35,680 bases of DNA from positions 1-35,680 of the forward strand of contig JANXYJ010000059.1 of assembly GCA_025350105.1 (NCBI GenBank). Direction: 5' to 3'. The stretch's first letter is position 1. Each line of letters starts with the position of its first letter. Under the pieces are notes generated by a model. It was given only the letters and a program-made list of their open reading frames with translations, did no database searches and had not been told where the DNA came from. The translations under genes and the position numbers were made by a program. Of this stretch, positions 128-1,140 are shown piece by piece. Origin of the DNA: Terriglobia bacterium. Its GTDB lineage: Bacteria; Acidobacteriota; Terriglobia; Bryobacterales; Bryobacteraceae.

Positions 128-162
128 GAAAAAAACGCCAAGTGCTTTGTTTAGTATGGCGT
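128..162 (-). terminator. Candidate intrinsic terminator of tRNA-Glu
   Basis: Read on the minus strand, the last six bases of the tRNA including the encoded CCA (ACGCCA) can pair with TGGCGT 16 bases downstream, and the second arm runs directly into a seven-T tract (plus-strand A run 129-135). This looks like a short Rho-independent terminator whose first arm is the tRNA 3' end. A second hairpin, CCAGC-TTTT-GCTGG at 107-120, has no T tract. I see no gene in bases 1-156. Confidence 0.5.
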
Positions 163-233
163 CCCCAGAGGGATTCGAACCCTCGTTACCGCCGTGAAAG
201 GGCGATGTCCTAGGCCGTCTAGACGATGGGGAC
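157..233 (-). tRNA. tRNA-Glu (anticodon TTC), CCA encoded
   Basis: The reverse complement folds as a full cloverleaf. The seven-base acceptor stem starts GTCCCCA and pairs with TGGGGAC at the 3' end. The D arm contains the GTCTAGACGGCCTAGGACA region typical of bacterial tRNA-Glu, the anticodon loop is CTTTCAC with anticodon TTC, and the T arm carries GGTTCGAATCC. The discriminator G is followed by a genomically encoded CCA (157-159). The sequence closely follows the E. coli tRNA-Glu pattern, so the identity is secure. Confidence 0.97.
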
Positions 234-337: not shown

Positions 338-676
338 TTAGAGCGACTTGAGATACGCGATCAGGTTATCTTTTTCGTCGGCCTTCATACCATCTCCCAT
401 GGGGGGCATGGCACTGGTGCCTTCGTTGATCAGCGCGCGAACGTTTTCTTCGCTTACCGGCTTGTCGTTCACCAGTTTGGCTTTCTTGAAAAGACCTTTC
501 AGGCCAGGGCCCACTTTGGCGTCGGTGCTATCGGCATTGTGGCACACGCCGCAGTTATCGTTGAAGACCGATTCGCCCTTCTTGGCGTCACCGTCGGCGG
601 CAACGGCGGGCAAGCGAAGAGCCAACATCAATCCCAATCCACAGACGCAAGCGGCAGCCAAAGTTCCTTTTTTCAT
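338..676 (-). CDS. Secreted small c-type cytochrome (class I)
   Basis: A 112-residue protein. It has an N-terminal signal peptide (charged MKK, hydrophobic stretch to about residue 26, cleavage near AVA-AD), then a single haem-binding CxxCH motif (CGVCH, residues 42-46). A methionine-rich segment near residues 90-98 (MPPMGDGM) supplies the likely distal haem ligand. Length and order match monohaem class I cytochrome c, so it probably shuttles electrons in the periplasm. The partner is unknown, because no oxidase or dehydrogenase genes are adjacent. The ATG lies 23 bp from the divergent peroxiredoxin ATG. A TAGAAT box ends six bases upstream of the start, with TTGGAG 17 bp further up, so the transcript may be leaderless. 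Confidence 0.9.
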   Translation of the reverse strand: MKKGTLAAACVCGLGLMLALRLPAVAADGDAKKGESVFNDNCGVCHNADSTDAKVGPGLKGLFKKAKLVNDKPVSEENVRALINEGTSAMPPMGDGMKADEKDNLIAYLKSL

Positions 677-699
677 ACTTGTATTCTACAATCTGCGGT
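677..699. promoter_or_regulatory. Overlapping divergent promoters, cytochrome c / peroxiredoxin
   Basis: Only 23 bp separate the two start codons. The plus strand has TACAAT at 687-692, ending seven bases before the peroxiredoxin ATG. The minus strand has TAGAAT (plus-strand 683-688), ending six bases before the cytochrome ATG, with TTGGAG as a possible -35 at 17-bp spacing inside the peroxiredoxin gene. The two -10 boxes share bases 687-688. There is no Shine-Dalgarno sequence on either side. The boxes are visible; promoter function is inferred. Confidence 0.6.
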
Positions 700-1140
700 A
701 TGGGACTCCAAGAGGGAAATGCGGCTCCGCACATTAAAACTCCTGAATTCGATTTGGCCGCGCTGAAGGGCCAGAAGGTGGTTATCTTCTTCTTTCCAAA
801 AGCAGATACGCCCGGTTGCACCAAGGAAGCCTGCGAATTCCGCGATTCGACGAAAATGTTTCAGAAGAAAAACGCGGTGATCGTGGGGATTTCGCCCGAC
901 AAAGCGGCGGCCCAAGCCAAGTTCGCCACCAAGTATGAACTTCCCTACACTTTTGTGCCAGACTCCGAACATGCCATCGCCGAGGCCTTTGAAGTGTGGA
1001 AAGAAAAGAGCATGTACGGCCGCAAGTACATGGGGATTGAGCGGACCACGTTCATCATCGACGAGAAGGGCAGGATCGCGAAGATTTTCCCAAAGGTGAA
1101 AGTGACGGGGCACGCGGCGGAGGTGCTGGGGAGTTTATAG
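700..1140 (+). CDS. bcp: Peroxiredoxin, BCP/PrxQ type
   Basis: A 146-residue thiol peroxidase that reduces hydroperoxides using a thioredoxin-type donor in the cytoplasm. The active-site segment PKADTPGCTKEACEFRD carries the peroxidatic Cys at residue 40 and a resolving Cys at residue 45. This five-residue spacing marks the alpha-helical atypical 2-Cys PrxQ/BCP group. Length is normal for the family. I chose the ATG at 700; an in-frame TTG at 679 would add seven residues that do not look like part of the fold and would overlap the promoter. The 3' end overlaps the convergent PIN toxin gene by 6 bp. Pairing with a cytochrome c suggests, but does not prove, a shared redox-stress role. Confidence 0.93.
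   Translation: MGLQEGNAAPHIKTPEFDLAALKGQKVVIFFFPKADTPGCTKEACEFRDSTKMFQKKNAVIVGISPDKAAAQAKFATKYELPYTFVPDSEHAIAEAFEVWKEKSMYGRKYMGIERTTFIIDEKGRIAKIFPKVKVTGHAAEVLGSL

Follow-up and report, generated by a model that had tools for sequence, protein, structure and literature searches.

The 23-bp gap that separates divergent genes for a cytochrome c and a peroxiredoxin, near the left end of the window (the whole 35,680-nt stretch of DNA analysed here), is most likely a bidirectional core promoter of the housekeeping-sigma class that gives rise to two leaderless mRNAs and that is older than the gene pair it now separates. The AT-rich decamer ATTCTACAAT (AKTYTACAAT in relatives) would hold a -10 element for each strand, the two overlapping at a palindromic TA, and RNA polymerase could load onto it either way round. 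One orientation would place the transcription start on the A of the peroxiredoxin ATG or right next to it, and the other would place it on the first base of the cytochrome ATG, approximately 23-24 bp away, such that two leaderless mRNAs would arise from 23 bp. The cytochrome orientation would additionally use a -35 element located in codons 3-4 of the peroxiredoxin gene, and the peroxiredoxin orientation would draw chiefly on its -10. Both genes would be expressed off the one element as long as activity is at its ordinary, low level, and strong activation of one direction would lower the other. The element would predate the cytochrome/peroxiredoxin pair, having served the cytochrome across much of the family while the divergent partner was swapped.

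Bidirectional promoters are already known as a kind, and the founding paper on those of bacteria is reportedly dated 2021. Those described in two reports come from start-site maps (PMC12825309; PMC10268837), the class being defined by starts 7-25 bp apart and reciprocally overlapping -10 positions (PMC10268837), and its starts lying preferentially 18, 10, or 23 bp apart (PMC12825309).

Gene Pair and Geometry of the Gap

The features of the locus are as follows, in order of position.

338-676, minus strand: small c-type cytochrome, 112 aa (Pfam PF13442, E 1.9e-12; PF00034, 2.7e-10)
676, minus strand: predicted cytochrome c transcription start at the A of the ATG, 7 nt from the last -10 base
677-699, no strand: whole intergenic gap, read as a probable bidirectional core promoter from its conservation in genus and family
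679-691, no strand: perfect dyad TTGTA-TTC-TACAA with 5-bp arms, seen by eye
683-688, minus strand (read 688-683): TAGAAT, -10 box of cytochrome c, 6 nt 5' of the ATG at 676
687-688, no strand: TA dinucleotide common to both -10 boxes
687-692, plus strand: TACAAT, -10 box of peroxiredoxin, 7 nt 5' of the ATG at 700
699-700, plus strand: predicted peroxiredoxin transcription start, at the ATG or 1 nt before it, 7-8 nt from the last -10 base
700-1140, plus strand: PrxQ/Bcp-type peroxiredoxin, 146 aa (Pfam PF00578, E 2.4e-33)
706-711, minus strand (read 711-706): TTGGAG, candidate cytochrome c -35 element, 3/6 to consensus, 17-bp spacer, in peroxiredoxin codons 3-4

The cytochrome, which begins with the ATG at 676 on the minus strand, carries a CGVCH haem motif and, as judged by eye, a signal peptide; its top NCBIfam match is NF045930, cytochrome c6, at 39.2 bits and thus under the cut-off of 135. 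The peroxiredoxin scores 139.9 bits against NCBIfam PRK09437 (cut-off 140), and its ATG at 700 was preferred as the start over a TTG at 679 because homologues begin at the ATG.

The intervening sequence, ACTTGTATTCTACAATCTGCGGT, had been described in the initial annotation as a 23-bp gap in which TAGAAT on the minus strand and TACAAT on the plus strand have two bases in common, and this description is exact, the two bases being the TA at 687-688. Each box matches the -10 consensus at 5/6 positions. The key -10 positions on opposite strands overlap reciprocally, as in the definition given in PMC10268837, and the start-to-start distance predicted from the -10 positions, 23-24 bp, would fall within the 7-25 bp of that class. 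By our own arithmetic, a separation of 23 bp combined with a 7-nt spacing dictates that the boxes share exactly TA.

A single match to the strict layout CAT-N5-9-ATTNTANAAT-N5-9-ATG was obtained over the 945,092 bases of this genome, at the gap described here, and 10 dinucleotide shuffles gave none. Genome-wide counts of two intermediate overlapping-box patterns (1 each, against means of 0.5 and 0.3) and of any ANNNTANNNT (12, against 7.8 expected) did not differ significantly from expectation; the single sequence is therefore weak evidence, and the case rests on conservation. Under a further criterion of our own, outside the published definition, by which the symmetric overlapping -10 should exceed chance, both the strict layout and the family composite described below do so. 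A standard sigma-70 scan of positions 1-2000 requiring at least 9/12 matches returned no promoter, a blank that we attribute to poor -35 elements.

Predicted Leaderless Transcripts

Neither ATG is preceded by a Shine-Dalgarno sequence (ACAAGT stands before the cytochrome and CTGCGGT before the peroxiredoxin), and a TANNNT signal lies approximately 12 bp upstream of each, with its first T at -12 for the cytochrome and -13 for the peroxiredoxin. Since the boxes end only 6 and 7 nt from their respective start codons and Shine-Dalgarno sequences are lacking, the mRNAs of both genes are probably leaderless.

A leaderless setting in this bryobacterial lineage is real. In this genome, TANAAT precedes a possible start by 5-9 nt in 33/644 predicted genes, compared with 7-17 genes in each of the other nine 5-nt spacing bins, and this genome-wide peak of the TA signal has the same spacing as is found at both ATGs of the pair. 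TACAAT-N5-9-ATG occurs at 72 sites in this genome against 22 in the reversed control, and at 1589 sites against 371 in 23 genomes of the genus. Leaderless genes were reported in 3/3 Acidobacteria surveyed, with a mean of 13.3%, in the accessible text of PMC3160421.

The distance from the minus box to the cytochrome ATG varies among the 16 loci of the genus that hold the divergent pair (pair loci, below). It is 6-7 nt, with no Shine-Dalgarno sequence, in 11/16, and 20-58 nt in the remaining 5/16, four of which have a Shine-Dalgarno-like motif. The motif stands at an ordinary distance from the cytochrome ATG in L004, L010, and L016, and at approximately 24 nt from the chosen ATG in L006, where it is closer to an upstream in-frame ATG; the fifth, L014, has a 20-nt leader free of such a motif. 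These leader lengths are roughly as would be expected if the minus box fixes the transcription start.

Other compact arrangements of the same signals were seen in the course of these counts. A second divergent pair of leaderless type (L179; genome G000, contig 73, 7425-7497) has outward TACAAT boxes on both strands approximately 42 bp apart that do not overlap, and back-to-back TACAAT boxes 9 bp apart, with an ATG after each, occur on contig 100 of the same genome (3412-3452), a possible second compact divergent leaderless promoter. Among the TACAAT-N5-9-ATG sites listed for genome G005, the identical string TACAATGGGTGCATG appears eight times, several of them close to contig ends (examples are C6:143-157, C73:66-80, and C74:143-157), and may reflect a mobile element that is present in several copies and whose first gene is leaderless.

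Conservation of Both Boxes Within the Genus

In 20 of the 23 genomes of the genus that were searched, a peroxiredoxin locus similar to the query was recovered; G002, G017, and G018 gave weak peroxiredoxin matches only and were excluded from the genus counts. TACAAT lies 6-9 nt before the peroxiredoxin ATG in all 20 of these loci. The initial annotation had proposed comparing the gap among relatives, and in the 16 same-genus loci with a divergent cytochrome both boxes proved to be conserved, the minus box being TAGAAT (as in the window), TAGACT, or TAAACT (the latter two matching the consensus at 4/6 positions) in 16/16. In the four loci without the pair, the minus box is kept in L012 and absent from L011, L015, and L019 (16/16 versus 1/4, Fisher p 0.0035, in which common descent of the loci overstates independence, as it does for the other p-values given here). 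Locus L015 (genome G007) is instructive: no cytochrome was found on it, a tRNA-Glu adjoins the peroxiredoxin, and TACAAT is intact where the AGT of the minus half reads GCG. Conversely, in L124 (G017, contig 213) the peroxiredoxin frame is lost after approximately eight codons, and both boxes remain together with CTCCAA, in whose two codons the cytochrome -35 would be written; in L129 (G018) both boxes are kept on a 3.3-kb locus with no peroxiredoxin.

The AGTY preceding TACAAT is found in 15/16 pair loci, the window having ATTC instead, and at only 21/1572 other TACAAT-N5-9-ATG sites of the 23 genomes (38 AGTY sites minus 17, over 1589 minus 17, where the 17 are the peroxiredoxin or its remnant). 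It is also found in 0/33 leaderless-type genes of this genome, and AGTY as a general extended -10 of plus-strand promoters was rejected on these two counts.

The perfect dyad at 679-691 raises the question of whether TTGTA-N3-TACAA is instead the operator of a redox regulator governing both genes, one of which is a peroxide-defence gene. The arms are perfect over 5 bp in the window, but the left arm TTGTA is kept in just 1/16 pair loci, and the operator reading was rejected for this reason. The conserved columns, moreover, fit two -10 boxes rather than a palindrome, and unrelated genes are paired with the same element elsewhere in the family. An operator is thus highly improbable, and the dyad is probably a by-product of the two -10 boxes that the bidirectional promoter would comprise.

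Divergent Partners Across the Family

Relatives of the cytochrome were found in 168/200 genomes of the family, the genus included, and upstream regions were compared for 81 loci from 63 other genera, of which 60 were picked to spread over genera and the 21 added ones were best matches, so that some genera are represented more than once. The box was chosen blind by its minus half alone, as AKTYTA lying no closer than 5 nt to the cytochrome start. This minus motif is present in 52/81 loci, where 5.4 would be expected from mononucleotide shuffles, and the composite AKTYTACAAT in 27/81, where 0.03 would be expected; the 29/81 loci in which the blind minus motif is absent were omitted from the plus-box comparisons.

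Among the 52 loci, the plus-strand TANNNT accompanies a close divergent gene. It is present in 19/19 loci where a divergent start lies no more than 25 nt away, compared with 17/33 others (p 0.00013) and, taken separately, with 6/11 tandem loci (p 0.003). With one locus per genus, the contrast persists for TANNNT (15/15 close versus 13/25 others, p 0.0011) and for TACAAT (13/15 versus 9/25, p 0.003). The strict TACAAT, over all loci, occurs in 15/19 with a close partner, 6/22 with a far plus-strand gene, and 5/11 tandem loci; the close class differs from all others (p 0.003), and under the automatic classification it does not differ significantly from the tandem class (15/19 versus 5/11, p 0.11). 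Moving by hand L273 and L303, which the script had apparently misfiled, gives 17/21 versus 3/9 (p 0.03); the orientation of neighbours was taken from a codon score and short motifs rather than annotation, so other loci may be misfiled as well. A first table of 60 loci, with orientation assigned partly by eye, had given p 0.006 and is superseded by the automatic 81-locus table, which is the weaker of the two for strict TACAAT against tandem loci.

These comparisons bear on the possibility that only one promoter is real, whether that of the cytochrome (minus strand, ATTGTARACT, with CAAT as upstream context) or that of the peroxiredoxin, and that the other box follows from the symmetry of the -10, which is described as inherent in the available part of PMC12825309. 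Tandem loci do keep TACAAT in 5/11 cases and TAC in 10/11, which suggests a possible minus-strand role for at least the C. A single promoter is nonetheless unlikely given the absence of AGT in three of the four genus loci without the cytochrome, the association of TANNNT with a close plus-strand gene, and the start codons at leaderless distance on the plus side throughout the genus and on the minus side in 11/16 pair loci. Each box tends to be conserved together with its own gene, and the comparison as a whole suggests selection on both.

The identity of the divergent gene differs across the family. In 16 of the 19 loci with a close divergent start, the partner carries the motif found at the N terminus of TIGR04282-family glycosyltransferases, an identity confirmed by family search for two proteins (L048 and L284), and in L022, L023, L048, and L049 the glycosyltransferase gene is followed by a peroxiredoxin. 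The partner is an ArsA-family ATPase in L312 and a peroxiredoxin in L283. On the simplest history, the cytochrome promoter would be old, and loss of the glycosyltransferase in the genus of the window would have brought the peroxiredoxin into its place.

A Candidate -35 Element Within the Peroxiredoxin Gene

According to the initial annotation, the -35 elements of both promoters should lie inside the opposite coding regions. This expectation is supported for the cytochrome, for which the candidate TTGGAG falls in the peroxiredoxin gene, and is not supported for the peroxiredoxin, for which a search of the genus loci at 16-18 bp spacing revealed nothing conserved within the cytochrome gene. A TTG-type hexamer (TTGGAG, TTGGAT, TTGAGA, or TTGAGT) is found 17-18 bp upstream of the minus box in 14/16 pair loci, the exceptions being L018 and L020; among the four non-pair loci it is present in L015 only. 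TTGGAG matches the consensus at just 3/6 positions, so the hexamer alone proves little, and codon usage in the peroxiredoxin gene was also considered.

In codons 3-4, leucine is encoded by CTC in 9/9 and glutamine by CAA in 12/12 cases, compared with genome-wide usage in predicted genes of approximately 11% of leucine codons for CTC and 43% of glutamine codons for CAA. When synonymous conservation was scored over 16 genes (L017 contributing 39 codons only), the three highest-ranked of 146 three-codon windows were those that begin with codons 1, 2, and 3. Codon 104 lies above codons 3 and 4 taken singly, and among two-codon windows the one at codon 104 ranks first, followed by those at codons 2 and 3. 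A cytochrome c -35 element is thus probably written inside peroxiredoxin codons 3-4, and constraint at the start of a leaderless message could add to the codon conservation observed.

Possible Competition Between the Two Directions and Relation to Known Promoters

The claim that polymerase cannot occupy both promoters at once, made in the initial annotation, agrees with the steric constraint stated for the class, namely that a shared -10 cannot be bound both ways simultaneously (PMC12825309, available text). Its corollary, mutually exclusive expression of the two genes, is overstated. According to that report, five E. coli bidirectional promoters that were tested had too little basal activity for the two directions to compete substantially, and antagonism emerged once one direction was strongly activated (PMC12825309). 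Low-level expression of both genes, rather than mutual exclusion, would therefore be expected here.

A dedicated switch that sets respiration against peroxide defence, as proposed in the initial annotation, is accordingly given very little probability, despite the steric exclusion stated for the class (PMC12825309, in part) and the retention of the pair in 16/20 genus peroxiredoxin loci. It is opposed by the low basal competition in the E. coli examples, by the turnover of partners across the family, where the cytochrome faces a TIGR04282 glycosyltransferase or an ArsA-family ATPase, and by the four genus loci that retain the TACAAT promoter of the peroxiredoxin with no adjoining cytochrome.

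As far as the available portions of PMC12825309 and PMC10268837 describe it, the 23-bp bidirectional class has in common with the present gap the reciprocally overlapping -10s and the divergent genes, and also a start separation of 23-24 bp and two mRNAs, both predicted here from sequence. The gap differs from that class in that its mRNAs are predicted to be leaderless, a -35 of the cytochrome likely lies within the coding sequence of the partner, and the element is kept over much of the family opposite a variety of partner genes. The leaderless genes with a TA-like signal of PMC3160421, again as described in part of that text, offer a second likeness, namely TANNNT approximately 12 bp before a start that lacks a Shine-Dalgarno sequence, found here on both sides, and Acidobacteria, the likely host phylum, are among those reported; here, in distinction, two such genes stand head to head with part of the signal in common.

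No family-wide conserved bidirectional promoter was recognised in a literature search judged at title level. Searches judged by titles and abstract openings gave nothing to the point that joins leaderless genes with bidirectional promoters, and a search combining leaderless, Acidobacteria, promoter, and genome-wide gave nothing. Within the literature searched, the predicted expression of two leaderless genes off one 23-bp gap and the conservation of both halves across much of a family thus appear to be new, as do the loss of a half where its gene is missing and the exchange of partners. To what start-site maps have provided, the present case adds sequence evidence that both halves are under selection, together with apparent losses in nature that affect either side, a partner swap, and a likely -35 in coding sequence. 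The practical lesson is that, where a lineage has leaderless genes, even a very short gap between divergent genes can make up a whole double promoter.

It is conceivable, if doubtful, that a two-way core promoter has been selectively kept through the history of the family as a portable unit made up of the cytochrome and the shared -10, with any newcomer on the opposite side becoming leaderless. If true, the sharing of polymerase itself, through dose limiting or noise damping, would be the selected function, and this would run counter, for at least this one locus, to the published view that bidirectional promoters tend to be eliminated in the course of evolution. The locus lends itself to a test of whether sharing the polymerase brings a benefit or is simply tolerated.

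Further Observations at the Locus

A tRNA-Glu(TTC) gene lies just past the 3' end of the cytochrome gene (157-233, minus strand) and was alone in reaching the gathering score in a search of positions 1-2000 for RNA elements. It is present on all 16 pair loci and on L015, L124, and L129, and absent from L011, L012, and L019. Downstream of the peroxiredoxin, two adjacent minus-strand ORFs (1135-1569 and 1579-1851) resemble, as named by eye, a PIN-domain toxin (MRIVLDTTILVRAN...) and its small partner.

Peroxiredoxin matches in several further genomes are each marked with one TGA. In L017 (G016) and L025 (G031), an in-frame TGA stands exactly in place of the conserved Cys in TPGCT (TPG*T), with the reading frame continuing beyond it; a TGA at this catalytic site likely represents a putative selenocysteine.
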